64,000 bases of DNA. It comes from Gemmataceae bacterium. GTDB taxonomy: Bacteria > Planctomycetota > Planctomycetia > Gemmatales > Gemmataceae. A program made the position numbers and the translations under genes. Location: the NCBI GenBank assembly GCA_003136315.1, contig PLDW01000518.1:55443-119442 (forward strand). The letters are read 5' to 3'. Numbering within the stretch: position 1 is the first letter of the stretch; each line of letters starts with the position of its first letter. This document shows positions 7,383-42,482 of this stretch, in pieces. A model generated the notes under the pieces. The model was not told the origin of the DNA and searched no databases. It saw nothing but the letters and a program-made list of their open reading frames with translations.

Positions 7383-7467
7383 TAGTTTGATTTAGGCGTT
7401 TGCATGCTCGTCCCCGAGCGCGCACCGCGGTATCATGGATGACAGTCACCTTGAGCATCGGGCGTCC

Positions 7468-8904
7468 TCAGTCGTCGTCCGGGTAGTAACTCGTCAGCGT
7501 CGGGTAAGCTTTCCATAGCTCGGGGTATAGTTCACGGAGTCGCTTGGCATTCCGCCGCATGGTCGAGCGGTCGGCGAAGCCGAGGAGTTGCCGCGCCGCC
7601 TCCTTGGAACCGCGGGCGCGGTCGAGTGCTTCGGCGAACACTTCGATCTGGGCGTGCGCCGCCCTGCGATCGAAGTCCAGCCCGCAGGCCGCCGGTTCCA
7701 CCGGCGCACTCAGGAGCCACGGCCCGACCAGCTCGGCCGGGATCACTTCAGTCGGGCACAGCGTCGCGGCCCGCTGCACGATGTTGTCCAACTCGCGCAC
7801 GTTGCCCGGCCACGCATACCCGATCAGGCGATCCACCGCCACTGGGTCGAAGCGGCGGGCAGCGCACGGCACGCGGTCGCGGAACCGGTCGAGGCAATGC
7901 TGTGCTAGCAGCGGCACGTCCAGCAGGCGCTCGCGCAGCGGCGGAACTGACAGCCGCAGGACGTTCAACCGGTAGTACAGGTCGGACCGAAACCGCTGGT
8001 CGCGAACCGCCGCTTCCGGGTCGCGGTTGGACGCGGCGATCACCCGCACGTCGATACCGCGCTCGCTCGTACCGCCGATCCGCCGCACCCGTCGTTCCTG
8101 CAAGACTCGCAGCAGCTTTGCCTGCGACTCGAGCGGCAACTCGGTCACTTCGTCAAGAAGGAGCGTACCGCCGTGAGCCTGCTCGAACAGCCCCGGTCGC
8201 ATCCGGTCGGAGCCGGTGTACGCACCCTTTTCCGCACCAAACAGCTCCGCCTCCACCAACGACCCAGGCAGCGCCGCGCAGTTCACGGCGACGAACGGGC
8301 CGTCCTTCCGCGGGCTGGCGCGGTGAATTCCCTGCGCCACGACCTCCTTACCTGCGCCCGATTCGCCTGTGATAAAGACCGTCGCCTCGCTGGCCGCGTA
8401 TGCCAAGAGCATCGCCTTTAACGACCGCATCGGCTCGGACTCGCCGACCAGTTCCGACCCTTCGTAGCGGTCCAGCCGGTCGCGCAACACCACCGTTTGC
8501 GAACGGAGGCGGCGACGCTCGAGGAGCGCCTCCACCTTCGCGACGAGCAGGTCGATTCGCAGTTGCTCCTTGCCGATAAAATCCGCCGCGCCGCGGCGAA
8601 GCGCTTCCACTTCGACGTCGTCAGCGCCGAGGCCTGTGAGGATGATGATGGGCACATCCGGGACGTGTTCCTGCGCCCAACTGAGGAACTCCAAGCCGCT
8701 ACGGTCGTTCGGATCAGCGCGGCCGGCAAGCCCGACGTCGACCATCGCAAGGTCGATCCCGTCTTCGAGATGCCTCTGCGCCGCCGCGACAGCGGTCGCC
8801 GTGAGGAGTTCGAACCGCTCCGGCGTGCCACGCCGGAGCGCCGCGGCAAAGCGCGCGTCGTCGTCGAGTAGGAGTAGGCGCGGACGGGTCATGTTTGGGG
8901 CCAA
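7468..8904 (-). CDS. NtrC-family response regulator (REC + sigma54-interaction AAA+ + HTH-like tail)
   Basis: RLLLLDDDARFAAAL (REC); GESGAGKEVVAQGIH (Walker A); LFGAEKGAYTGSD; GGTLLLDEVTELP; WPGNVRELDN. Confidence 0.93.
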   Translation of the reverse strand: MAPNMTRPRLLLLDDDARFAAALRRGTPERFELLTATAVAAAQRHLEDGIDLAMVDVGLAGRADPNDRSGLEFLSWAQEHVPDVPIIILTGLGADDVEVEALRRGAADFIGKEQLRIDLLVAKVEALLERRRLRSQTVVLRDRLDRYEGSELVGESEPMRSLKAMLLAYAASEATVFITGESGAGKEVVAQGIHRASPRKDGPFVAVNCAALPGSLVEAELFGAEKGAYTGSDRMRPGLFEQAHGGTLLLDEVTELPLESQAKLLRVLQERRVRRIGGTSERGIDVRVIAASNRDPEAAVRDQRFRSDLYYRLNVLRLSVPPLRERLLDVPLLAQHCLDRFRDRVPCAARRFDPVAVDRLIGYAWPGNVRELDNIVQRAATLCPTEVIPAELVGPWLLSAPVEPAACGLDFDRRAAHAQIEVFAEALDRARGSKEAARQLLGFADRSTMRRNAKRLRELYPELWKAYPTLTSYYPDDD

Positions 8905-11685: not shown

Positions 11686-11892
11686 GGAGAAACCCTCTAT
11701 TGGGGGTTCCGTGTAGCGCCCAGATATTCTCCATCAGCGGGCCACTCTCGACCGCTAAGCCGGGCAGGCGCTCGCCGTTGCCGGCTTGGAAGCCGTCCGC
11801 AAGCGCCGGCGCTCGCGGACGCGATCGAGAGGAGTTGGAATCGCTCGTTCGAACGATTGAAAAGCACCGAAGTAGGTTCTGTTGCGGCCCTT

Positions 11893-19655: not shown

Positions 19656-20027
19656 TTGACAATTGTCATTTTCATTCAGTATGTGAATTCATCTCCGATT
19701 AGCAACCGGGAAGGCATAGGAAAGAGGACCGTGACAAGAGAACACGTCGAATTAGACGCCAAGATGGCCACCTTTGCCGGGACATTCCCTACTCTACGGG
19801 AATCTCCGGGAACAGTTCGGTGGGATGCCAACACCCTCGATTATTGGGCAGCCGACACCCCCCTCTCGCCAGGGGAATTGTGGACAGCGCGGTTTGTGCT
19901 GGCGGTGTGGGATGCGAGCCACCCGTGGCAGTGTGGCCGTTTCGATGTGATGGAAGCGTTACGGGTCTGGGATCTGAAGCACAGGGCCGCGTTCCTCGCC
20001 TGGGTGAATGACCCGTGGTGGCCGTGA
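19656..20027 (+). CDS. Hypothetical protein upstream of integrase
   Basis: ORF overlapping the integrase start by 13 bp; start codon uncertain (GTG 19731 possible). Confidence 0.45.
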   Translation: MTIVIFIQYVNSSPISNREGIGKRTVTREHVELDAKMATFAGTFPTLRESPGTVRWDANTLDYWAADTPLSPGELWTARFVLAVWDASHPWQCGRFDVMEALRVWDLKHRAAFLAWVNDPWWP

Positions 20028-21003
20028 CGACAACAAGCGACGCGAGAGCCGACGAAGTGATGCGGCTCGATAGAGGGACTGTTCTCCCTTCGACCCTCCT
20101 TCAGGCTGGACCCCGCGCTTCGGAGAAGTTCGTCGAATTCTTTACAGCAGCAATACGGAACCCGAATACTCGTAGTGCCTACCACCGGGCCTCGGTGAAG
20201 TTCTTCGATTGGTGTGGTGCGGTTGGCCTGTCCCTGGAGCAGATCCTGCCTGTTCACGTCGCCACGTACATCGAGGCCCTCGGCCGGGAGATGTCGGCCC
20301 CAACGGTCAAGCAGAATCTCGCCGCCATCCGAATGCTCTTCGACTACCTCGTGGTCGGTCAGGTCGTCGAGATGAACGCAGCGGCCGCTGTCCGTGGGCC
20401 GAGCTACTCAGCGAAGAAGGGAAGACTCTGGTCCTCGACGAGGACGAGGCACGGACACTGCTGAAGAGCATCGACCACACGAGCGTGGTCGGCCTTCGTG
20501 ACAGGGCTGTCATCGGGTTGATGGTCTACACCTTTGCCCGAGTTGGAGCGCTGGTCGCGTTAAACGTTGAGGACTACTACCCGCAAGGCAAGAGGTGGTG
20601 GGTGCGGTTGCATGAGAAGGGCGGAAAACTTCACGAGGTGCCGTGTCACCACAAGCTTGAAGAGTGGCTGGATGCCTACCTCGATGCGGCTGGGCACAGA
20701 GATACAAGAAAGGCACCCCTCTTCAAAACAGTGATCGGAAGGACCAGGAAGTTGAGTGAGGGGCGGATGACCCGCGGGGACGTTTACAAGATGGCCAAAC
20801 GACGGGCAGTTGGGGCTGGGATCGAGACCGCGATCGGCTGTCACACGTTTCGGGCGACCGGGATTACCAACTACCTGTCCAACGGGGGGACGCTGGAAAA
20901 GGCCCAGGCTATCGCCAATCACGAGTCCACACGGACCACGAAACTCTACGACCGCCGAGAAGACAAGCTATCACTCGACGAAGTAGAGAGGATTACGATC
21001 TGA
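20015..21003 (+). pseudogene. Tyrosine recombinase/integrase with a frameshift near 20410-20430
   Basis: N-terminal SAM-like domain in 20015-20464; catalytic domain in the next frame (FARVGALVALN, CHTFRATGITNYL, ANHESTRTTKLYDR). The sequence joins smoothly as GPSYSAKKG/KTLVLDEDEAR. Confidence 0.85.
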
Positions 21004-21014
21004 TAAAAATCTAT

Positions 21015-21677
21015 TCACTCGTCAGTGGCGATTGCGTTGAATTCACCACGAAACCACGACCGCCCAAGCAGCTTTCTGAGTCGGTTCACCTGCCGGTTGT
21101 GACACCGTCCAAGGCGGCGGTGACTGCCACACGGGCATGGTTCTTTATTCGCGACACGTCGTCGAAGTGAAGTGAGATGAACGAACACGCGCGCGGCAGC
21201 CCGACTTGGTGCCCTGAACAGTGAGGCAAAGTATTGGAGTAAGCCGTCCCGGCCATGTTCGAGTTCGCCAAACGGCATCACACCGTGGGCCTCATGGTAG
21301 CTGTGGCCGAACAGATACGGGATGACGAGCCGATCGACGAAGCCGAGAAGTGTCGGCGCTGTCGCCAATTGGATCTGGATTTCCGTACGCGCCCCGAGGC
21401 AAAGCAGATCGCCTTCGAGTTTGTGAAAGGCGGGAGCGATTCGCCCGCCGGTTTCACGGACAGTCGGGATCCCCCGAGGAAACGTCGACTGGACCCGGAT
21501 TTCGATCGCGTAGCAATCCTCGACCGTACGCCCGTCGGGGCCTGTTGCCCGGAACGGAAGATCCCCGGCGAGAAGTAGATCGTCACCGGAATTCGGCATG
21601 ATCCGCAGCCCGGAGTGACGCAGCAGTAGGTCTTGCAACCGCCAGCGGGCAAAGCGGTCGGAGGCCGATTCAGCCAT
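21015..21677 (-). CDS. E2-like (UBC fold) CBASS-associated protein with C-terminal SEC-C zinc motif
   Basis: YAIEIRVQSTFPRGIPTVRETGGRI...HKLEGDLLCLGARTEI...FVDRLVIPYLFGHSYHEAHGVMPFGELEHGRDGLLQYF is E2-like; C-terminal CPCGSHRRLGRCH fits CxCx8CH. 8 bp overlap with the CD-NTase gene. Confidence 0.75.
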   Translation of the reverse strand: MAESASDRFARWRLQDLLLRHSGLRIMPNSGDDLLLAGDLPFRATGPDGRTVEDCYAIEIRVQSTFPRGIPTVRETGGRIAPAFHKLEGDLLCLGARTEIQIQLATAPTLLGFVDRLVIPYLFGHSYHEAHGVMPFGELEHGRDGLLQYFASLFRAPSRAAARVFVHLTSLRRRVANKEPCPCGSHRRLGRCHNRQVNRLRKLLGRSWFRGEFNAIATDE

Positions 21678-22833
21678 GTTGTCCCCAGGGCCTTGGGCCC
21701 GAAGGAATGATCAGTGGCGGTGCGGCCTTCAGGATCGTCGGGGCCGTGGTCACCGATCCTGATCCAAACTCCCGAAGTTCAGTCTGTGTCAGGTCAACAC
21801 GGAGGATAGCCCGCACTTCCCGACCAAGGGTCGGACTGCGGAGGAGCCCTGGGAGTTTTGCAACATCGGCCTTCACAGCCGCGTACCAGGCCCAGAAATT
21901 CGTTTCGAGCCGGGCGTCTCGCGACCACTTGTCGGCGTAGTCCTCGCCCGGAGCTGCCGGGTTCGGAACGCGGGGACGTTCGCTCCGTACGAACGATGCC
22001 ATTCGCTCGACGATATTCACCAGAGCCGCGTAGATGTCGGGCTCGCCGTCATAGGCCCGTGCAGCAAGATTGGTAATGATCATCGAAATCGGTTGCAGGT
22101 CGGTATTATTTCGAAACATGACGTCGCGATGCCGTTTCAAAAACTGAATGCTCCGCTGGAGCGTTGTCTTCCACTCGTACGGGGGCACGTCTTCGATCGA
22201 GGCTTTTAGACGGCCTTCGAGCAGACTCCGAGATCGGCCCAAGGCTGCGCGTGACTCGAACCAATGGGCGAACCCGCGTGGGTTGCTGCTCGTCCATCGC
22301 TGCGAGAGGACTCGATAATCCGGATGTTTGCGGTCGGTGATCGCAATCGCGCGGCCGGCGAGGTCCTGGGGCACCCCAAATTCGGCCAGATGTCGGATGA
22401 CCACCGCGTCCTCCGGGACACAGGGCAGCGTGTCGAGATGGAAGTTGACATCGTCAGCGTACACAAGCCGCCAGCACCGATTGTGCTCTTCAACAGGGGC
22501 CAGCATGTTGTAGGCTTTGGCGTAGGCTCGAATCTCTTCGCCATACAGCCGCTTCAGCTCCACCTGTGTGAGTGTCCCTTTCGTCAACCCCCGCAGCAGG
22601 CAAACATCGTCGAGATCGTACTCGTCATTCTCGTTTAGAGGCCGGTTCACAGTCCCGTACCGGAACGAGCCTTGCGGCCGCACGTCAGGGTTGAAGGCTC
22701 GCACGAGGGAATTCGGGCGATGTAGCCACTCGCCGAGCGAGCGGTGCCTGGCTGCCGCCTTCTCGTAGAGCGATTTTGGCACGTCGAAGTGTTCGATGAT
22801 GGCCGTCAAGAGACGGCTCAGCTCAGGGTTCAT
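21670..22833 (-). CDS. CD-NTase (CBASS cyclic oligonucleotide synthase)
   Basis: PQGSFRYGTVNRPLNENDEYDLDDVCLL (GSxxxGT and DxD) plus FHLDTLPCVPED (third acid); C-terminus ...PRPWGQHG ends in Gly. Confidence 0.92.
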   Translation of the reverse strand: MNPELSRLLTAIIEHFDVPKSLYEKAAARHRSLGEWLHRPNSLVRAFNPDVRPQGSFRYGTVNRPLNENDEYDLDDVCLLRGLTKGTLTQVELKRLYGEEIRAYAKAYNMLAPVEEHNRCWRLVYADDVNFHLDTLPCVPEDAVVIRHLAEFGVPQDLAGRAIAITDRKHPDYRVLSQRWTSSNPRGFAHWFESRAALGRSRSLLEGRLKASIEDVPPYEWKTTLQRSIQFLKRHRDVMFRNNTDLQPISMIITNLAARAYDGEPDIYAALVNIVERMASFVRSERPRVPNPAAPGEDYADKWSRDARLETNFWAWYAAVKADVAKLPGLLRSPTLGREVRAILRVDLTQTELREFGSGSVTTAPTILKAAPPLIIPSGPRPWGQHG

Positions 22834-22835
22834 GA

Positions 22836-24023
22836 TCAATCTCCGTTCGGGATAGACAGGGCGTGAATGAAGCCACCGCGAGCGTTCACCTGGTCGTACA
22901 CATGCCACGGCGTATCGGCCTTCGGCATCCGAATGCGGCCGAGTTCGACGGCCATCGCAGCTGACACCGCCGGAAAGATGTGGATGGGGGTGATTTGACC
23001 GTGGACCGCCTTGATGCGGTCCAACTGCGTGCGGAGGACGGCCCGAAACCGACCGAGCTGCTCCCGGCTCTTGGTCATGTCGTTGTGCGGTTGATCAACG
23101 GTGACCTCCCAGACACTCACAGTTGGGCCGAGCACGGCTTCAATCCGGTCGGGGGTGACCGTCGCGCTGAGGGCCAGGACGAGAGCCGCCGGCCCGTCCG
23201 TGGTCGCCGGTTGTCGTACGATGAACTCCGGGGTCACGCGGGCTACCGGCCAGCTCCATGATGGTGGCTCGCGGTGGCGCTGGTACACGTCCGCCGGCGT
23301 GATGTCGCCGAGAAGCGTGCCGAGCAGAACGAGCAGCGGTTGCGGGGCGAGTGCGAACACGGACAAGTGCTCGATCTCGGCCGACGACAACCGCTCCCGC
23401 ACCCTGCGGCTAAAGTGCGACCGCAGGTGAGTGGCTTCCATTTGCCAGAACTCGTCGCTCCGGTCCTGTGTCGGGCAGTCCAGCGAACCGAGGCTGATGG
23501 GCGTCGCCGAGGCCGGATACCGTAACGGGAACATGGCGCTGGCCGCGTCCGTCATCAGCCGCGGGGAATTGTGTTCCCCGATGTTCGCGCCGTAAAGCAG
23601 GACGTGACTGCGAAGCTCGGCATTGATGCCCGTGACGATCTCGATGCGAAGTTCGTGTCGCGCCTTCATCTCCTGCAACACCTGAGCGGCGTACCGCCCG
23701 CCGTCCGGAGCGCGATCAATTGTTAAGTGGCAGATGGGGCAGACGAGGATCAGGTTGTCGACCGAGTTGATGTCGTCCGTAGCAACGCCCGCGTTCCCCC
23801 TCGGCCCGTCGCAGCTGAACGAATAAATGTGCGCCCGCTGGGCGACGTTCACCGGCTCCTTGGTTACGGGGGAACGCCACAGGGGCAAATTGCACCCAGC
23901 AAACTCGCACCGCCCGCCGGCGCGCCCCCAGAGCATCGCGGTCATGTGAGGCGAAATGTAACGGGTCACTTCGCGCGGCTCGTCGGAGCTGTTGACAGTA
24001 GGTGGTGTCGTTTTGGGGGCCAT
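22836..24023 (-). CDS. HNH endonuclease-SAVED domain CBASS effector (Cap5-like)
   Basis: HNH: CEFAGCNLPLW...NVAQRAHIYSFSCDGPRGN...DNLILVCPICHLTID; SAVED-like C-terminus ...HIFPAVSAAMAVELGRIRMPKADTPWHVYDQ. Start re-assigned to MAPKTTPP at 24023. Confidence 0.9.
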   Translation of the reverse strand: MAPKTTPPTVNSSDEPREVTRYISPHMTAMLWGRAGGRCEFAGCNLPLWRSPVTKEPVNVAQRAHIYSFSCDGPRGNAGVATDDINSVDNLILVCPICHLTIDRAPDGGRYAAQVLQEMKARHELRIEIVTGINAELRSHVLLYGANIGEHNSPRLMTDAASAMFPLRYPASATPISLGSLDCPTQDRSDEFWQMEATHLRSHFSRRVRERLSSAEIEHLSVFALAPQPLLVLLGTLLGDITPADVYQRHREPPSWSWPVARVTPEFIVRQPATTDGPAALVLALSATVTPDRIEAVLGPTVSVWEVTVDQPHNDMTKSREQLGRFRAVLRTQLDRIKAVHGQITPIHIFPAVSAAMAVELGRIRMPKADTPWHVYDQVNARGGFIHALSIPNGD

Positions 24024-24080
24024 TTTTGTCTTTGCCGGACGGGTGATGCAGGATACTTCAGTGAGCCGCAGGCGGTTTGC

Positions 24081-24195
24081 CGTGGGTCTGAAGAAGTAAT
24101 CGCTCGCCCGGGAAGCGACCGGTAACATCACCCGAGATTTTTTTTCAGCAGCCCGTCGGCCAGCGGGGACAGGTTCTGCTCGGTTTGAGTGGGAC
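24081..24195 (-). repeat. Degenerate direct copy of the helicase-gene 3' end (copy 1)
   Basis: CGTGGGTCTGAAG..TAATCGCTCG.CCGGGAAGCGACCGGTAACATCACCCGAGATTTTTTTTCAGC... matches 26636-26775 with an internal deletion. Confidence 0.9.
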
Positions 24196-24242
24196 CCGGC
24201 CCGCGGGACTCGATCGCTCGACTTCAGAAACCTTGCGAAGGC

Positions 24243-24698
24243 TCATCGCCGCCAAGCTGAGAGCCACAAACATAGCCGAGCCCACCAACTTAGTAATTTC
24301 TCATCGCGTACAGTCGAAATCGATGTCGGTTGTGGTGGGGTTGTCGTCGCCGCTGGAGTGTCGCCACTCGCCGAGGTGGTGATGTCCCGCTGACGCACCG
24401 CCGCGACTTGCGAGTTGTTCCAGTGCCCAGCCTCAAGGACTCGCCCGCGGTCAATCACGTAATGTGAACGGCACGGCAAAGTCCAACTTCCCACCGACGG
24501 CCACACGGAAACGGTCTCGCCGTCGTACGTCATCTTCCAACCGGTCGGCGAGAACGGGGTCACGACCTCCTCACCGCACCCACAGCAGCAACTGTGGGTG
24601 GCGGTGCCGAACTCCATCGACACGTAGAGAACTCCCGGCTCAAGACGGTCCGGAAAGTTACACACGAATCGGTGTTCGAGGCGGTGGCAGCGGATCAC
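24243..24698 (-). CDS. DUF6527-like cysteine-rich protein
   Basis: VIRCHRLEHRFVCNFPDRLEPGVLYVSMEFGTATHSCCCGCGEEVVTPFSPTGWKMTYDGETVSVWPSVGSWTLPCRSHYVI; GTG start overlaps the stop of the ThiF gene (GTGA). Confidence 0.75.
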   Translation of the reverse strand: MIRCHRLEHRFVCNFPDRLEPGVLYVSMEFGTATHSCCCGCGEEVVTPFSPTGWKMTYDGETVSVWPSVGSWTLPCRSHYVIDRGRVLEAGHWNNSQVAAVRQRDITTSASGDTPAATTTPPQPTSISTVRDEKLLSWWARLCLWLSAWRR

Positions 24699-25870
24699 GC
24701 CCGGTCTCCGTTTTCGAGTTGGTTGCCGTCGGTCGTATAGGTGCAATGATGTTCCCGTTCGAGGTCGCGATAGAACCCCCGAATCTTCTTCCACTTGATG
24801 ACGGCCAGCACGGCGTTGAGTGCGTTTAGGTCGGCGACCTGGATGTTGGAGGAGTAAACGTCGTCCGCCCCGCCGCCGGCGAAGGAGATGCGGCCTTGGT
24901 GAACGTGGTCGCGCTTTTCGGGCGTGCTGGCCGTCACCCGGAGGATGCCGCCGAGCGAACCGTCGACCAGCTCCAACCCCATGCCCGAATCGATGAACGG
25001 GACCCCGAGCGCCTCAAGCTTCCCGACGATCACTCGCTTCGCGTCGCCCGCGCCCAGGCACAGAAAGGCAAAGGTGGTTCCGTCGAGCAGGGGCAGATTG
25101 TCCGCGGTGAGCCGGGTCTTGTGCGCAACGATCCCGCGGTGCATCTTCGAATAAATCCCCTTGAGATAATCGACTTTCGACGGTGCGTCTCGAAGCTCCT
25201 CGATCGACGGCGCACCGGGCGCGCGAAATGCGTTGTGCTGGAGGAACTCGTCCGCGTCGAAGAGGCGGATCTCCCGCACCGGTGCCTTCGCCACGAAGTC
25301 AAGCAGGTACGAGCCGGTCCCCCCTAGGCCGATGATGCTCACGATCTCACGGGTCAGCAGATCACTCAGCGCGCCGATCCCCACCCTGCCGGACGCGGTC
25401 TCGATGTAGTTAAAGACGCCGTCGTTTTCGTCTTCTGGTTCGCGGAACACTCGCGGCGTGGCATTGGGCTTCAACACCGCGGCCGGGCCGGAGAGGATGC
25501 CGGCGTATGTGGTCATCTTCTCGTGGTAGTCGAGATAATTCCGACCGGGCTTGGTCGAAAAGTGGTACTTCGCGGTCAAGCCGTGGCCGAGGTTGTGATC
25601 TCCCGCACCATCGCCGATGCCCGTGATTCGCTTGCCGTCGGCGTTGCACGGGAACTCCCCGTCGAACCACACCTGGTGCGTGTCGGGAGGCCGGGTCTGG
25701 TCTCTGGCCAAGGTGAGGCTTGAGATGAGCGTACCCGTCAGCACCTCTCGCTTCGCGTTGACGTAGGGCACCTCGCGCATCACCAGGAGCGAGCCCCGGA
25801 TCTGCACGAAGTAGCCCTCGTCACGAAGGCGCTTGAGATCGGCGTTACGACTGAGTAGTGCGTGTGACAT
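24695..25870 (-). CDS. ThiF/E1-like adenylyltransferase with N-terminal E2-like (DUF6791-type) region
   Basis: VSIIGLGGTGSYLLDFVAKAPVREIRLFDADEFLQHNAFRAPG is the E1/ThiF nucleotide-binding motif; ~190-aa N-terminal extension; 26 bp overlap with the multiubiquitin gene. Confidence 0.85.
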   Translation of the reverse strand: MSHALLSRNADLKRLRDEGYFVQIRGSLLVMREVPYVNAKREVLTGTLISSLTLARDQTRPPDTHQVWFDGEFPCNADGKRITGIGDGAGDHNLGHGLTAKYHFSTKPGRNYLDYHEKMTTYAGILSGPAAVLKPNATPRVFREPEDENDGVFNYIETASGRVGIGALSDLLTREIVSIIGLGGTGSYLLDFVAKAPVREIRLFDADEFLQHNAFRAPGAPSIEELRDAPSKVDYLKGIYSKMHRGIVAHKTRLTADNLPLLDGTTFAFLCLGAGDAKRVIVGKLEALGVPFIDSGMGLELVDGSLGGILRVTASTPEKRDHVHQGRISFAGGGADDVYSSNIQVADLNALNAVLAVIKWKKIRGFYRDLEREHHCTYTTDGNQLENGDRA

Positions 25871-26600
25871 TGAACACAGTTCCGTTCTTGACTTGGACTC
25901 TCCCGCCGGCCCCGAGCTCCCCCGACGGGGGCTTCGAAGCGGCGTGGCGGTATGAGATGGAAAAGACAACATCCGGGTTGTGCGCCCCGGGGAACGCCAA
26001 CTGCACGATCTGCTCGAACGTCACGTCCGGCCCAGTGACAGTCTTCGGTCGCGCGTTTACGATGATTTCGAAGGTCGGCCGAGGGGCCGTGAAGAATCGT
26101 TCGACGCCCGGCTTCGTCAGGTCGATCAGTTCGCAAGGTTCTACGAGGCGGTCTTCGCCCCCGCGCACCTCCAGGTACACGACCTGGTCGTCAGAGGGGT
26201 TCGCCAAAGTGCGGAGGGCCCTGCCGCTGATCGTTGGCTTGCCCCACCGCAACTCGTGGTCGTTTAAGGTGAGGTGGAAGTCGCGGTCGGAGCGGAACGT
26301 CACGAATCGCTCGGCCCCCTTCGCACGGAGGTCGAACGTCTCATCCAGGCGGATGTCTTCGAAGTCTCCGCTGGGAAGGATTGCGAAGAGACTAAATTCG
26401 TCGATCGGCGCAAGACCGGCAGCCGTCAGAATCTGGCGCCCCAAGGGAACCGGGACGGAGATGGTGACCGGGCGAAAGTTGAGGCTTTCGTCGCTCACGG
26501 CAATCCGGTACGACGCGGCGACGCGGACGGCGCGGCCCTCTCGCACCGCGGCGCCAATGTCTTCGGTGTCTCCGGGAGTTGTCGTTATGTTGTCGTTCAC
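25845..26600 (-). CDS. Multiubiquitin protein (three tandem beta-grasp Ubl domains)
   Basis: Three repeats: VSDESLNFRPVTISVPVPLGRQIL, LTLNDHELRWGKPTISGRALRTLA, and FEIIVNARPKTVTGPDVTFEQIVQLAFP...GTVFNVTRTTQS; matches the multiubiquitin family pattern as I recall it. Confidence 0.85.
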   Translation of the reverse strand: MNDNITTTPGDTEDIGAAVREGRAVRVAASYRIAVSDESLNFRPVTISVPVPLGRQILTAAGLAPIDEFSLFAILPSGDFEDIRLDETFDLRAKGAERFVTFRSDRDFHLTLNDHELRWGKPTISGRALRTLANPSDDQVVYLEVRGGEDRLVEPCELIDLTKPGVERFFTAPRPTFEIIVNARPKTVTGPDVTFEQIVQLAFPGAHNPDVVFSISYRHAASKPPSGELGAGGRVQVKNGTVFNVTRTTQS

Positions 26601-26635
26601 GAGGATCGTCCTTTCAGTTAGTCCCAGGCATTTCG

Positions 26636-26775
26636 CGTGGGTCTGAAGGACTAATCGCTCGACCGGGAAGCGACCGGTAACATCACCCGAGATTTTTTTT
26701 CAGCGGTCCGTCGGGCAGCGCGCCGCAGATGAAAAACGCAGGGCAGCGGGGACAGGTTCTGCTCAGCTTGAGCGG
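26636..26775 (-). repeat. Direct repeat covering the 3' end of the IrrE-UvrD gene (copy 2)
   Basis: Aligned by eye to 24081-24195. Confidence 0.9.
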
Positions 26776-29700
26776 GAAACGGCCGGCCTGCACCGCGTTC
26801 CCCATTTGGTCAATCGACGCGCGCCGGTTTGCAAGGACGCGAGCCGTCATCGCGACCGGTGTTATCACCGCGTCGCTCAGGTGAACCAGTTCGACCGCGC
26901 AGTCCGAGGAGTGGGTATGCGCCGCGATGACGAACGCCGCAGTCGCAAGGCTCTCGTCGTCCTTAGAGCCCTTGTGCCCGGTGTCGACCCGGCGCATCGT
27001 GATCTTCCCGCCGACACTTAGCACCTGGTCGGGCCGGATCACGATCTCGCCACCCGGGACCGGTAGGCGGAGGCACGGCACCTGGCGGACTTCTGCACCG
27101 ATCACGGTTCCCGCGTAGAAGTTCAGCAGTTGCATGGCGATTCGCTTGTACTCGTCTCCGTAGCCGTGGTCCACCAGACCGTGCTCAGCCCACACGGCGT
27201 CTAACGAAGCCTCCAGCTCCACGAGCGAAGGTTCTTTACCTCCTATCCCGTCAACGACCTTCTGAACCGCGACGTGCAACTGCATGAACCCGGTCTCCGT
27301 CCGACGGCCGCCCACGTCAAGGATGTGCGTGTACAGAAAGCGGCGCGGGCACCGCTCGTACAGGGCCAGTTGGTGATCGGTGAAAGCGAACGGCCCATCC
27401 ATCGTCAGCGGAACCGGCGAATCTTCTGGGCTCGGAGGTAGCACCTTCGTCGGCGTTACGTGGCGCATATCGATTCGGCTGCTCAAACGATCGATGAACG
27501 GCGACCGTGGGTGACTCGCGCTGTTCGACTTTTTCGTCTGAGAGTACATGACGAGTCGGTCGCGGGCTCTTGAGAGGGCGACGAAGAACAAGCACTCTTG
27601 TTCCTCGCTCAAGGCTTCTTTCACAGCATCGATTGCCTTGCCGGCAGCCCCGTCGATCAGTCCGTCGGGAGGAACAATCATGCCCGCAACTAAGGCGTTC
27701 GGCGAGCGTGGCAGACTCGCGTTGGTCAGGCCGGGGATGTGGACGGCCCGGAATTCGAGCCCCTTGCTCCCGTGCATCGTCATGAGCCGAACGGCATCAA
27801 TTCCTTGCGCGGCCGCGGGGAGCTGACGCAGGTCGCGTTCGTCGGAAAAAAGAACCAGACGACGAATTCTGGTGAGCAGGCGGGACAGCGGGAGCCCCTG
27901 TCCGTCGGATTGGCTTCGAACGAAATTCATGAACTGCCAGATCGCAATGCCGCGCGACCGCGCCCGAAGATCCTCGGCCGGGGCGATCTCGGCAGCGGCC
28001 CGCGTGCGGTCGAGTAGCACCGCGCAAAGGATGTCCCACGGATTCGCGTCCGACGTGAATCCGGCAAGTAGCTCGGCGATGCCCCGAAGCCCATCGAGCC
28101 CCGCCGGAGAAAGTGCCGTGAGGGTGCCGAGGGCCTCCACCCACTTCATCGGCTCGCAGTCGTCCTTTTTGAGATGCGAGAGCACAAGAGCGACATCGGC
28201 AAGCGGGACGGCGTGGGACTTCTGCGCCGCGACGCGCAGTAGCCCCATCGCCCTGCGATCAACGAGGATCGACAGCAGCGAGAGGAGATCCTTGATCTCG
28301 TCTCGCTCAAACAAGCTCCCGAGATAGAGAACCGGAACGCCGAGGCTCTCCAGCCCTTCGGTCAACCGCCCGAGCCGCTCGTTGCCAGCGCTCAAGATCG
28401 CTTGGTCGCGGTACGAGTATCCCTCCTTCTGCAGTTCCTCGATCGCTTCCGCGACCGCCGCGATTTCTTGGTCGCCAGTCTCGACCGACCGGTACTCGGG
28501 CCGCCGCCCGGCCGCGCCGCGGGCCGCCCGCAAGCCGATCTCGGTGCCGCGGACGCTCGGGATCTCCGCAGCAAAAGCGAGGTACGTGTCGACCACCTCC
28601 TCGACGCTTCGGTAATTCGTCGTCAGCCGCCCGCGCTTCGCCCCCGAGAAATCCTCACGGTCGAAGCGAACCATGTTGAACGCGGACGCCCCCCGGAACC
28701 GGTAGATGGATTGCTTGACGTCACCGACCGCCCAAAGATTGCGACCGTCCCCGGCGATGGCCTTCAGCAATCGCACACTGCTTCGGTTGACGTCCTGATA
28801 CTCGTCGACAAGGATGTGCTCGTAGCGCGCGGCCAGGTGCTCGCGGACGTCCTCTTGCTCTTCACACAGGCGGACCGGCAACGCCACGAGGTCGCCGAAG
28901 TCGATGTACCCTTTAGCCGCCTTCATTTTCTCGTAGGCCGCGAAAACGGTCGCCACTTCGAGGCTGCGCCCAGCGGCCTCGCGCGCTTCGGGAGTAGTGG
29001 CAGACGCGAGCATCGACTCCGCCAGGGTGCGGTATCCGACAGAGTCGATAACTTCGTCTCGGGCGCGCGAGATCGCGTCGAGGATGCTCTTGATCGAACC
29101 CGACGGATCCCGCAAGTCTTTGAAGTGTTCAAGGCCGAGTTTCGGGTACTCGTCCTCCAGGAACCCGATCGCGTCGGTCCGCTCAAGGAGCTTCGGGTTG
29201 CGTGGCAAGTCCAAGCGATCGTGGAAACGGCGGATGATATCGAGCCCGAAGCCGTGGAACGTGCCAATCCAGATGCTCGCCGCTGCCGCTCGGTGTTTGG
29301 CCCCGATTCTCTCCGAAAGCTCGCCGGCGGCCTTGTTGGAGAAGGTCAGAATGAGGATTTTCCCAGGCTCCACCCCCTTCGAGAGCAGGTAATCGACTCT
29401 GCCGACCAGCGTCTGCGTTTTCCCCGTCCCCGGCCCGGCCTCGAGCAGGTAAGCAAATCCCTCGTGCGTTGCCGCCGCTTCCTGGTCCGGCTTCAGCGGC
29501 TTGTTCTCAATTTCTTTGGGCGGGGGAATCTCGAACCGGGGAAGGAGGAGCGCGTCGAGGAGTTGCTGCGCGACAACCGCGTGTGGCGCTCCGAGCTTTG
29601 ACGCGATGGTGTCTGCTGAAACTCCGTCCTCAAGGTGGAGCGTTCGTACCCACGGCCTTGGTACCAAGAACTCTCGTGCAAACAGGTCCATCTGGACCTC

Positions 29701-30084
29701 GCGCCGTTGCCGCTGACTGTAGTCGACGACACGATCAACGCCGACGGGGACGGCCTCGGATGCCCTGAGCGGATCGCCATCCGACATCGCGTCCGCCTCG
29801 TCTTGACCGTCAAATTCAACGTGTCCGATCTCGTGAGCTACCAGAAACGCGCTGGCAAACTCGTCTCCCGTGTCCTCGTGGAGGATCAGGAGTGCGTCGG
29901 GATCGTAAACCGCTCGACCGCCGAAGAGGCGCACATCCCCCACCGAAACCCTCTCGACCGCAATCTCCCGTCTGGTCGCTTCCGCGCAGGCAAAGGCGTA
30001 CGGTTTCCACGGATCGTGGCCCGCCGCGACGGCGTTGACATGGAACCGCTCGGCGCACTGTCGGCTGATTTCAATAGAGTCCAT
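26683..30084 (-). CDS. ImmA/IrrE metallopeptidase-UvrD/Rep helicase-PD-(D/E)XK-like fusion
   Basis: HEIGHVEFD (HExxH); EAGPGTGKTQTLV; ILVDEYQDVN; NYRSVEEVV; TMHGSKGLEFRAVHIPGL; FVALSRARDRL; C-terminal YERCPRRF and CPRCPAFFIC. Confidence 0.93.
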   Translation of the reverse strand: MDSIEISRQCAERFHVNAVAAGHDPWKPYAFACAEATRREIAVERVSVGDVRLFGGRAVYDPDALLILHEDTGDEFASAFLVAHEIGHVEFDGQDEADAMSDGDPLRASEAVPVGVDRVVDYSQRQRREVQMDLFAREFLVPRPWVRTLHLEDGVSADTIASKLGAPHAVVAQQLLDALLLPRFEIPPPKEIENKPLKPDQEAAATHEGFAYLLEAGPGTGKTQTLVGRVDYLLSKGVEPGKILILTFSNKAAGELSERIGAKHRAAAASIWIGTFHGFGLDIIRRFHDRLDLPRNPKLLERTDAIGFLEDEYPKLGLEHFKDLRDPSGSIKSILDAISRARDEVIDSVGYRTLAESMLASATTPEAREAAGRSLEVATVFAAYEKMKAAKGYIDFGDLVALPVRLCEEQEDVREHLAARYEHILVDEYQDVNRSSVRLLKAIAGDGRNLWAVGDVKQSIYRFRGASAFNMVRFDREDFSGAKRGRLTTNYRSVEEVVDTYLAFAAEIPSVRGTEIGLRAARGAAGRRPEYRSVETGDQEIAAVAEAIEELQKEGYSYRDQAILSAGNERLGRLTEGLESLGVPVLYLGSLFERDEIKDLLSLLSILVDRRAMGLLRVAAQKSHAVPLADVALVLSHLKKDDCEPMKWVEALGTLTALSPAGLDGLRGIAELLAGFTSDANPWDILCAVLLDRTRAAAEIAPAEDLRARSRGIAIWQFMNFVRSQSDGQGLPLSRLLTRIRRLVLFSDERDLRQLPAAAQGIDAVRLMTMHGSKGLEFRAVHIPGLTNASLPRSPNALVAGMIVPPDGLIDGAAGKAIDAVKEALSEEQECLFFVALSRARDRLVMYSQTKKSNSASHPRSPFIDRLSSRIDMRHVTPTKVLPPSPEDSPVPLTMDGPFAFTDHQLALYERCPRRFLYTHILDVGGRRTETGFMQLHVAVQKVVDGIGGKEPSLVELEASLDAVWAEHGLVDHGYGDEYKRIAMQLLNFYAGTVIGAEVRQVPCLRLPVPGGEIVIRPDQVLSVGGKITMRRVDTGHKGSKDDESLATAAFVIAAHTHSSDCAVELVHLSDAVITPVAMTARVLANRRASIDQMGNAVQAGRFPLKLSRTCPRCPAFFICGALPDGPLKKNLG

Positions 30085-30673
30085 CGGCGTCGCAGTCCCG
30101 GAGGAGGAGTTGCCGTTGCTCGTCGGTCATTTCCGTGGCCAGAACAAGCTCTCGAAACGTCTTCTGACCCTGGTGCGATGGCTTCACGTCCGATTTGAAC
30201 GCGAGCGCCGCCAGTCCAGGTTGCGCCTGCACGAAATAGTCGCGAGCTGACTCGACGGACAAGCTGGTCGCATCGGCGAATCGCCTCGTGAAAGGCTCTG
30301 GAATGGACGTGGCCGTCACCAGGCCGTCCCGGAATGCCGTGAGAAACGAGCGCGGGACGTTCAGTGCTGCCGCCAGTTGCACGAAGGCTGCGCCCTTGCA
30401 ACGCACGAACGGATTCACGACCTCGTTGCTGGGCACCGCTTGTCGCTTGCAGCCGAGGAATTCTTGCCACGCCGCTTCGAGGCCCGGGTCCGCCACCGTA
30501 CCGCCGGCCGGTTTCCCCGGAGCATTCGCAAGACGGAGTTCTGACGACAGGTCGATTAGCTCCTCAGTGAGTTCCGGATACTGCCGAAGGTAGCGATCAA
30601 GCGTACTCCAGTCGTGAGTTGCCTCGACTGCGAACGCGTCAAGAATTGCCTCCGGATCGTGGGGGTTGCTCAT
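30071..30673 (-). CDS. Regulatory partner of the IrrE/helicase gene, hypothetical
   Basis: 200 aa; overlaps both neighbours (4 bp with the sigma gene, 14 bp with the helicase). Confidence 0.7.
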   Translation of the reverse strand: MSNPHDPEAILDAFAVEATHDWSTLDRYLRQYPELTEELIDLSSELRLANAPGKPAGGTVADPGLEAAWQEFLGCKRQAVPSNEVVNPFVRCKGAAFVQLAAALNVPRSFLTAFRDGLVTATSIPEPFTRRFADATSLSVESARDYFVQAQPGLAALAFKSDVKPSHQGQKTFRELVLATEMTDEQRQLLLRDCDADGLY

Positions 30674-31506
30674 ACGTCGTCCTCCTCTTTCAGGGCGTCC
30701 CGCAGTGTTTTAAACGCCCGATCACGCCTATTGCGCACTGTTTGCTCGACGCAACCAACGAGCTTGGCAATTGTAGTAACCCCTTCCTCCTGGGAGTCGA
30801 TCGGCACCTCTTGGAAGATCAGCTCGATGACCCGCCGCTGGTCGGGCGGCAGGGAATTAATCGCCGTGTGGAGTTTGGACCGGTAAAGGAAATCCACGCC
30901 TTCGTCATTCAGAGCGTTTCTCATCGCCGCCAGGGCCGATTCTATCTCCTCCGAGGCCTCCCCTGCATTGTCCGTGAAGTCCGTCGATTCGTAACGGGAC
31001 TCGTCCCGCCAGACCCGCTTTCGCGCAGTCGACCGAAGACGGGCGAGCGCGAAGTTAAAACGGCACTCGAAGCAATCGAGCCTGTCGTCGTATTCTCCGC
31101 CACGGTCTCCACAGAGCATCTCTTGGAACTTCTGGATGACGACTTCCTGGATTTCCTGTTCCCCCGACTTCTCGACAAGTTTCGCCGTGCCGGCCAGACG
31201 CCGAGCGGTCACAGGCACAGCCCGAAGTACTCGCTGGCGTAAAATCACGAACAGATCGTGAAGAGCGTCGTCGACCAAGCCAGGTCGACGGAAAAAGTAC
31301 AAAACACACTCAGACAGAACATAGTTCGGAGCGTCGACGTCCTCAATGCGGGAGCGTTCGATGAGTTCGTGTGTCGACAGCTCTAAAAGGGCTGTGAGCG
31401 CCGTTTCGACCTCGTTGGGGCGACAATACAGACCACCGTCAGGTAACCGCTTGCGGAGCGGTGCGACCGGCGGTTGTGTTCGTTCTCGGGCGACGTTCTG
31501 AGTCAT
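30670..31506 (-). CDS. Sigma-70 family (ECF-like) RNA polymerase sigma factor
   Basis: C-terminal region 4: LHTAINSLPPDQRRVIELIFQEVPIDSQEEGVTTIAKLVGCVEQTVRNRRDRAFKTLRDAL. Confidence 0.8.
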   Translation of the reverse strand: MTQNVARERTQPPVAPLRKRLPDGGLYCRPNEVETALTALLELSTHELIERSRIEDVDAPNYVLSECVLYFFRRPGLVDDALHDLFVILRQRVLRAVPVTARRLAGTAKLVEKSGEQEIQEVVIQKFQEMLCGDRGGEYDDRLDCFECRFNFALARLRSTARKRVWRDESRYESTDFTDNAGEASEEIESALAAMRNALNDEGVDFLYRSKLHTAINSLPPDQRRVIELIFQEVPIDSQEEGVTTIAKLVGCVEQTVRNRRDRAFKTLRDALKEEDDV

Positions 31507-31809
31507 GTTCTGCTCGCCGCCTCCCCACACACCTCGGGATCCAACAGTCGCAAGCGTGGAACGTCCTAACGTTGGCTGAACTGTTTGACGCGTCTTTTCG
31601 TCGCATTATGCAATTTGAGGTCGTGCGTGGTCGTCAGCCGGTGACCATTGCGGCCTATTCGCCGCATGCTCGATCACAAAGTGTTGCTATGATACTGAAC
31701 TCGATGCGCCAGCGATTGTCCCATGATTTTACCGCAACTGCACTCTGTCTTGCAGGGAAAAAACGAGCTCTGGGAAATCTAGTGGCCGATCGGAATGTGG
31801 AACCGGCAT

Positions 31810-40965: not shown

Positions 40966-41877
40966 TCAACTCCATCCCCTACCCGGATCCCATACCGCAT
41001 CGAATGTGTTGGTTCCACGCGCTGCATCAAGTGGTGGCAACACAAACCCTTCAAGCTCTATCACCACCTCGCTCAGTTCACCCACCCTCTGTCCCAACCC
41101 GCTTCGCCGCACGAAGGCTTTCCATTGCTTCTGCTTGGCGTCATCTGTTGCGAACGCTTTGGTGAGTGCGATGGGAGCCGTGGCGGGTATCACGGTTTCC
41201 CGCCTCCGGAACGTGGCGGTGATCGCATCACGCACCCGCGCGCCCTCGAACGGAAGCATTCCCGATAACACGAGCAGATCGTAGAAATCCTTCATCCGTG
41301 AGTTGGCCAGCCCGAGCTTCACCATCGCCTCGATTTTCTCCGCCACCACAGTTTCCTTCGGGTATGCTCGGAGCCTCGGCGGCTCCATGCCAAGGAGCGT
41401 CGGATACTCGACGGCTTCGGCTCCCGGTGTGATCGCATCTCCAAAGCCCACATCCACCTGGAGTGACACTCGCGCCGGCCCCAGCGTTGCTTGGAACGTA
41501 ACCCGCCTCCCGCCGTATTCGTCTTCCTCGCGGATCTGTTCGACCGACACCGAGTTGGGGTCGAAGACGAGCCCGTCGTCACCAGAGTCGCCATCGCAAA
41601 GGGCACGAAAGACCTCTGTCAGCCGTGCGTCACTATTCTCGCCAAATCCGAGGAAGTCCACATCCCGGGTCGGTCGGTGCATCTCCCCCGTCCAGAGAGC
41701 AAAGAGCATCGCTCCTTTCAACACGAAGTTGTCCACATGGTCGGAACCCGCGAGCCGGCAGAGCAGTCGCTCGACGGCGTATCGGGTGAGGAGAAGTTGG
41801 AAGTCCTCACCTGTCCTCTTGCTGATGTTCAGCAGTCGCTACTTGGACGAGGCAGCAGGATTTTTCTTCTTCGTCAT
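40966..41877 (-). pseudogene. AbiEii-like nucleotidyltransferase toxin with in-frame TAG at 41839-41841
   Basis: ATG at 41877 (ATGA overlap with antitoxin): MTKKKNPAASSK*RLLNISKRTGEDFQLLLTRYAVERLLCRLAGSDHVDNFVLKGAMLFALWTGEMHRPTRDVDFLG... Confidence 0.85.
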
Positions 41878-42482
41878 ACGAGTGACTCGATGTACGGCCG
41901 CATGACGTTTGCCATCCGGCACACCCGAGCGGCTGCCCACATCTCGCCCATTGTTGCCTTTCGCTTTCGCCAGCAGTCACGGAGCGCCTCGATCGCCACG
42001 TCGAGGCCGACCGTGTTCCGGAACTTGAAACAGTCTGCCACTGTCTTCGCCGGTGTGTAGACTCGCACGGTGACTTTCTCGATCAGGTGGGGTTCGAGAA
42101 AGTCCGTGAGTGACGGGCCAGAAAACCGCATGATTCGCAGTTTGGGTGATTCGAGTTTCGGAACCCAGGCTTTGTTTGGGAGGGCGAGCCACACCTCGTG
42201 CGGGGACTGCGTGGTGAGACCGTGGAACTGGAGGGCCGAGAGCAGGCACGCCACACCGGCAGGGACAGACCGGGTGGCCTCAGCGAGCGAATGGTGCTCG
42301 GTGACTTCCCGGTCGGGCCAGGCGTAGACCCCACGGGCCACACGCTCGATCACCCCTCGGCGGCGGAGCCGGTCCAGATAATCCGTTGGAATGTCGTGGC
42401 CTGCGAGGTCGCGAGGTCGGAGAATCCCCTTCTTCTTGACGAGTCGGATGGCTTCTTTCAGCTTGGTCGTGGGAACCGGCAC
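41874..42482 (-). CDS. AbiEi-like antitoxin
   Basis: ILRPRDLAGHDIPTDYLDRLRRRGVIERVARGVYAWPDREVTEHHSLAEATRSVPAGVACLLSALQFHGLTTQSPHEVWLALP. Confidence 0.85.
   Translation of the reverse strand: MPVPTTKLKEAIRLVKKKGILRPRDLAGHDIPTDYLDRLRRRGVIERVARGVYAWPDREVTEHHSLAEATRSVPAGVACLLSALQFHGLTTQSPHEVWLALPNKAWVPKLESPKLRIMRFSGPSLTDFLEPHLIEKVTVRVYTPAKTVADCFKFRNTVGLDVAIEALRDCWRKRKATMGEMWAAARVCRMANVMRPYIESLV

Follow-up and report, generated by a model that had tools for sequence, protein, structure and literature searches.

A multiubiquitin, E1-like and DUF6527 gene trio belongs to a larger, widespread operon of six genes, including those for a protease-helicase and a probable sigma factor, whose promoter-like element is copied ahead of a CBASS

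In the window, a 64,000-nucleotide stretch of DNA from a Gemmataceae bacterium, genes for a ubiquitin-like (Ubl) protein, an E1-like enzyme and a DUF6527 protein lie beside a CBASS, which raises the question of what unit this trio belongs to, how it may be switched on and whether the CBASS is its partner. The domain content proposed by the first-pass annotation, a three-domain Ubl, an E1 with an N-terminal extension and a DUF6527 protein, was confirmed using Pfam. The Ubl (25845..26600, (-) strand; 251 aa, ending in ...FNVTRTTQS) has three Multi_ubiq matches (1.4e-60), and the E1 (24695..25870, (-)) comprises an N-terminal DUF6791 domain (residues 9-157, 1.9e-56) and an adenylation domain whose ThiF match (3.3e-6) is slightly below the curated cut-off in bits; over its full length the E1 is matched above cut-off by NCBIfam NF004802, and a fold search groups it with BubCD, UBA5, MccB and ThiF. 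The product of the third gene (24243..24698, (-); 151 aa) matches DUF6527 (1.7e-22) and is zinc-finger-like, with the signature C-x3-C-x34-C-x2-H present in 77 of 77 homologues and no noteworthy match in the PDB. Translational coupling had also been claimed, and the gene overlaps agree with it, with the E1 and DUF6527 genes shorter than first listed. Relatives and the sequence itself place the E1 start at ATG 25870 (not 25972) and the DUF6527 start at GTG 24698 (not 24794), giving an overlap of 26 nt between Ubl and E1 and of 4 nt (GTGA) between the DUF6527 start and the E1 stop. As identical overlaps at both junctions are annotated in public plasmids, coupling of the three genes is plausible. 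As such the trio is already known: Iyer et al. had predicted it as operon type 6e in 2006, its genes carry standard names at NCBI (multiubiquitin, ThiF family, DUF6527), and solved structures are available for related Ubls, including 9cd2. PADLOC 2023 contained no model matching Ubl or DUF6527.

A survey of 85,462 species genomes gave 249 E1 relatives, from which 80 loci were kept. The order of the trio was retained far beyond chance (Ubl in 80/80 loci, DUF6527 in 77/80), and the loci further encoded a helicase homologue (HEL, 58 loci), a protein of about 200 aa (ORF200, 54) and a sigma-70 region-4 protein (SIG, 54). Of the 53 three-domain loci whose upstream sequence reached 5.5 kb or more, 47 had the full order SIG-ORF200-HEL-Ubl-E1-DUF6527, in several phyla and on plasmids, whereas it was absent from 7 short-Ubl loci. 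The six genes co-evolve, with pairwise distance correlations of 0.74-0.90 against a permutation maximum of 0.23, values inflated by the kinship of the loci, as shared descent contributes. The trio is thus half of a larger, widespread operon, in which a protease-helicase and a probable sigma factor are encoded as well. Its position had initially been given as between a helicase and a CBASS; the CBASS does adjoin it, but the helicase gene (26683-30084) is no mere flank and belongs to the operon. Beyond the six genes no recurrent set was seen among the loci, the identity and strand of the neighbours being variable.

The E1 was also found in 115 plasmid records. Of the three plasmids in which the whole operon was read, two carry it beside Tn7-like genes; phage records gave no E1 match. 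The operon appears to be mobile and is probably stress- or phage-responsive. No paper describing it was encountered in the literature searched, and as far as that literature shows, the six-gene unit, its dedicated promoter-like element and the copy of this element before a CBASS are new. On the Acinetobacter plasmid pXBB1-8 (L121), an IS5-like transposase gene (7387-8133) separates the helicase and Ubl genes. The genome under study (C516, L027:4021-6020 and L026:6077-9270) additionally encodes a second module, in which a single Ubl goes with a DUF6791-E1 and DUF6527, and, apart from it, a two-Ubl protein with a ThiF protein after it.

The first of the six genes, SIG (30670..31530, (-); 286 aa), has a sigma region 4, the part that binds the -35 box (Sigma70_r4_2, 1.1e-6); this family was matched by 22 of 32 SIG homologues, and an Acinetobacter homologue is annotated as 'sigma-70 family RNA polymerase sigma factor'. 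Region 2, which binds the -10 box and the core enzyme, was not detected by Pfam or PDB profile searches and could be divergent. SIG is accordingly regarded as a probable sigma factor. ORF200 (30071..30673, (-)) occupies a fixed position in 54 loci; the window copy has no Pfam match, and 3 of 46 homologues weakly match an Xre-like HTH, a similarity on which its candidacy as a repressor is based, an anti-sigma function being the other candidate role. HEL (26683..30084, (-)) combines, according to Pfam, an M78 (IrrE/ImmA) protease, a UvrD helicase and a PD-(D/E)XK-like C-terminus. Among 56 aligned homologues, the Walker lysine, the DE of DEYQD and four C-terminal cysteines are invariant, and the M78 HExxH motif (HE..H) is present in 55. 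In the C-terminal domain an invariant Arg occupies the position of the expected acidic residue of (D/E)xK (alignment by eye), so that an active nuclease is doubted and HEL may not cut DNA.

The two halves of the operon share a 28-bp element, TTACCGG-N16-CGATT. One exact copy (P1; 30859..30886, (-)) is located within the 3' end of SIG, ahead of ORF200, and a second (P2; 26653..26680, (-)) 52 nt upstream of the Ubl start. The first half-site is common to the HEL-Ubl spacers of 35 of 52 loci (shuffle maximum 6), and the element is spacing-specific, with 110 matches at 16 nt compared to 1-12 for any of the remaining spacings between 10 and 23. P2 was perfect in 36 of 57 loci and had at most one mismatch in 55 (shuffled sequences, 3-6 mismatches), whereas P1 was found with at most two mismatches in 53 of 54 SIG loci, a conservation that is partly protein-level, since P1 overlaps the codons for the conserved YRxxLxxAI motif. 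P1 and P2 have matching -35 variants in 41 of 53 loci, compared with a mean of 21.8 and a maximum of 31 after shuffling, an agreement inflated by the kinship of the loci; clade variants common to both copies include TTTCCGG in sphingomonads and TTACCGA in Acinetobacter and Kluyvera. P1 and P2 were also seen in three plasmids from a separate collection. Across loci the element depends on the presence of SIG, as SIG-less loci with full flanks contained no TTACCGG-N16-CGATT. Exact matches to the element number 6 in the 11.6-Mb genome, 3 of them at the six-gene/CBASS locus; the reversed-pattern control occurs twice.

The simplest reading of the element is that of a promoter for SIG, which would act as a dedicated sigma factor, P1 driving ORF200-HEL and P2 driving Ubl-E1-DUF6527. 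It could instead be an operator at which ORF200 or SIG represses or activates transcription, in an otherwise unchanged operon, and the failure to detect region 2 in SIG as well as the faint HTH similarity of ORF200 agree with that. The element is, however, built like a -35/-10 pair: its two half-sites are asymmetric and always 16 nt apart, most copies lie 25-65 nt upstream of the start codon, and the -10-like box is directly followed by a hairpin in the Ubl leader (26604-26652 (-) in the window, and in relatives), whose pairing and some covariation exceed shuffled and slid controls. Together with the region 4 domain of SIG, this makes the operator unlikely.

In the preferred account, HEL would be the trigger. 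Activation by ssDNA and cleavage of repressors are described for two M78 proteases, PprI and CapP (PMC10904395), and we infer that HEL senses DNA and cleaves ORF200: its helicase would detect DNA damage or foreign DNA, and its M78 domain would then cut ORF200, as repressor or anti-sigma, thereby freeing SIG. In loci without SIG-ORF200-HEL, other regulators occupy the same place. L075, L095, L099 and L100 encode a GHKL-ATPase protein and, after it, a wHTH protein, L105 has a similar GHKL-like first gene and L096 the same arrangement by gene sizes, and in L094 an HTH and M78 protease pair is found instead (the domains were checked for L100 and L094). These pairs match the description of CapK+CapS (GHKL/wHTH) or resemble CapH+CapP (HTH/M78), which control Bub, Bil and CBASS operons in response to DNA damage (PMC13373217). 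A genome from the same family (L030, G047) has retained HEL-Ubl-E1-DUF6527 with a diverged helicase (34% identity), and neither SIG, ORF200 nor the promoter element was found in it.

Turning to the effector half, the Ubl ends exactly in ...N-V-x-x-T-x-x-S, without Gly-Gly, in all 79 readable loci, the final Ser being invariant, and the solved three-domain protein 9cd2 has the same ending as the window Ubl. The tail partly overlaps the region of the E1 start codon, where the Ubl frame is the better conserved of the two. This fixed tail suggests that the native C-terminus is already mature and agrees with the lack of any recognisable peptidase; none of the six genes could be confidently assigned as an E2, E3 or peptidase. 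The E1 would be expected to adenylate the three-domain Ubl at the Ser that forms its native C-terminus, and the activated Ubl would modify or assemble on targets, helped by DUF6791 (Cys74) or DUF6527. The same invariant ending, in 9cd2 as well, is also what a self-assembling scaffold could have, with the E1-like enzyme capping, modifying or regulating the Ubl C-terminus and no tag being conjugated. That reading is improbable given that the Ubl co-evolves with an E1 in which nearly all residues for adenylation are conserved and that the related Bub systems are, by the title of Ye et al. 2026, a conjugation pathway.

Loss of conserved catalytic residues in the E1 had been named beforehand as evidence against the proposed module, and in this one genome such a loss is partly seen. 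With residues numbered excluding the start Met, the glycine-rich loop (GxGGxG), Arg215 and Lys231 are invariant in 87 of 87 sequences and intact in the window, but Asp272, which aligns with the Asp of the BubCD CVDT stretch and is kept in 86 of 87, is Gly in the window copy alone (codon 272 at 25052-25054). This points either to an inactivating change, i.e. a recent loss, or to an assembly error, and unless the base is such an error the window copy may not adenylate. Taken with a split integrase nearby, the substitution might suggest that the module is a decaying remnant in an ordinary defence island where unrelated genes meet by coincidence. This is hardly probable at all in the face of the same gene order across phyla, the co-evolution and the conserved promoter-like elements.

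The DUF6791 domain may be a divergent E2. A spacing of ten residues between His and Cys is known from E2 enzymes, and it is matched by His64 (87 of 87 sequences) and Cys74 (85 of 87, Ser in 2). The domain was modelled confidently (pLDDT 89), and approximately 13 of the best 50 PDB matches in the fold search, counted by eye, were E2, UEV or UFC1 proteins, all with E above 0.7; no match in this search was significant, and the viral library gave nothing. As an E2 by sequence the domain was rejected, since hhalign against the CBASS E2 was negative and no Pfam or PDB profile relation was found; gathering Prok-E2_B for the profile comparison yielded one match. A divergent E2 with Cys74 is hence treated as a lead only. 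In two Verrucomicrobia loci that adjoin a CBASS (L102 and L104), Cys74 is replaced by Ser.

The CBASS of the window (21015-24023) is a type II-short set, with a CD-NTase, an E2 without an E1 and an effector. The effector is the HNH-SAVED protein Cap5 (22836..24023, (-); Pfam SAVED 3.6e-48, PADLOC effector 1.8e-139). The CD-NTase (21670..22833, (-); PADLOC cyclase 2.2e-111) ends in ...WGQHG and matches PDB 9woo (2.3e-88) and SmCdnG (8hsb, 2.3e-24), the latter presumably belonging to an E2-only CBASS. The E2-only protein (21015..21677, (-); PADLOC E2 1.4e-55) has a SEC-C tail, and its His85 and Cys93 are invariant in the four CBASS E2s aligned. Beside its gene, a tyrosine integrase is split over two frames (20015-21003 (+); SAM-like N-terminus and catalytic part), and an AbiEi/AbiEii toxin-antitoxin pair, a further defence-type system, is encoded at 40969-42482 (-).

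Between DUF6527 and Cap5 lies a direct repeat of the HEL 3' end and the HEL-Ubl spacer (24076..24204, (-); partner 26631-26787), with 90 nt at 91% and 47 nt at 85% identity, which carries the third exact copy of the element (P3; 24098..24125, (-)) roughly 75 nt before the likely Cap5 ATG (24023). The repeat is also detectable in the relative L037, with P3 at 11731-11758. CD-NTase and E2 adjoin the module in 3 of 80 related loci, in two lineages; apart from the window, they do so in L037 and the two Verrucomicrobia loci. As the CBASS of the latter lack P3, the promoter capture has been observed in a single lineage. Because an exact P3 within the duplicated HEL end and spacer precedes Cap5, the CBASS is probably a co-regulated passenger of the six-gene operon, P2 having been duplicated before it in this lineage, which would place it in the regulon.

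The adjacent CBASS E2 had been put forward as a possible partner of the trio, an idea that is not supported: adjacency in only 3 of 80 loci rules it out as a required partner, the CBASS has its own E2-only set, and the data suggest shared transcriptional control. The two systems might still be coupled biochemically, the E1 charging the CBASS E2 or the CD-NTase C-terminus in a split type II CBASS. Such an arrangement could be read from the shared strand and adjacency here, in L037 and in the Verrucomicrobia loci, from the Gly that ends the CD-NTase, and from the presence of an E2 but no E1 in the window CBASS. We consider it very unlikely, as adjoining modules are so rare, the CD-NTase relative SmCdnG is presumably a member of an E2-only CBASS, the E1 has its own co-evolving Ubl, and the window E1 lacks the conserved Asp.

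Overall, a SIG-controlled, HEL-triggered six-gene operon with a Ubl effector half, a putative role in defence and the CBASS in the same regulon is the account that we consider reasonably probable. A more specific version, in which the DNA-sensing protease-helicase frees the sigma factor for Ubl conjugation by an E2-like DUF6791 (Cys74) fused to the E1, with activation of the C-terminal Ser and a promoter-captured CBASS, is tentative and, taken as a whole, doubtful. What had been a vague 'Ubl module next to CBASS' becomes a defined unit with a testable switch, made up of a candidate inhibitor of approximately 200 aa, a protease-helicase as putative sensor, and a probable sigma factor with a promoter element of 28 bp that occurs in several phyla. 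A P2 reporter would be a direct route to when bacterial Ubl systems turn on, and can open the question of their substrates. A CBASS also seems to have been wired into the regulon of another operon by promoter copying.

Among known systems, the trio resembles operon type 6e of Iyer et al. 2006 (PMC1779556), whose components are a polyUbl, an E1 carrying either a JAB or a domain X unrelated to it, and a small protein that binds metal. Its X-E1 subtype has one to three tandem Ubls and a non-JAB E1 N-terminus, and the window operon encodes three Multi_ubiq domains and a DUF6791-ThiF protein without a JAB match in Pfam, together with a small, putatively metal-binding protein; DUF6791 may correspond to the 'domain X'. 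The 6e description in that paper includes no sigma, ORF200 or helicase genes and no promoter element, and the inactive E2/RWD gene of type 6e is absent from the window operon. The metal signature also differs, being C-x3-C-x34-C-x2-H here and C-x3-C-x(35-38)-H-x2-C as published, the published order being seen in 4 of 77 homologues.

The Bub system (BubA-BubB-BubCD) has related Ubl domains and operons likewise placed behind DNA-damage regulators, and the E1 adenylation domain is closest in structure to Citrobacter BubCD (best fold match 1.2e-13; profile match 1.1e-6). BubCD appears to be an E1 fused to a JAB-type peptidase, an assignment derived from D104A and type 6e, whereas DUF6791 has neither a JAB match nor detectable similarity to the BubCD N-terminal region, and no separate E2 (BubB) homologue was found in the six-gene unit by domain search or operon survey. 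Similarly, the multi-domain Ubl of Bil (BilABCD; 8u38) is alike across two domains, but the six-gene unit has no identified separate E2 or JAB peptidase. With CapH+CapP, CapK+CapS and PprI-DdrO the operon shares an M78 domain, in HEL, and M78 protease or GHKL/wHTH regulators upstream of related modules; HEL differs from them in joining its protease to a UvrD helicase, and the operon adds a sigma-like protein and a dedicated promoter element. The genes at 21015-24023 match type II-short CBASS (CD-NTase, E2 and effector) and are set apart from it by carrying, in the window, the duplicated promoter-like element of the six-gene operon.
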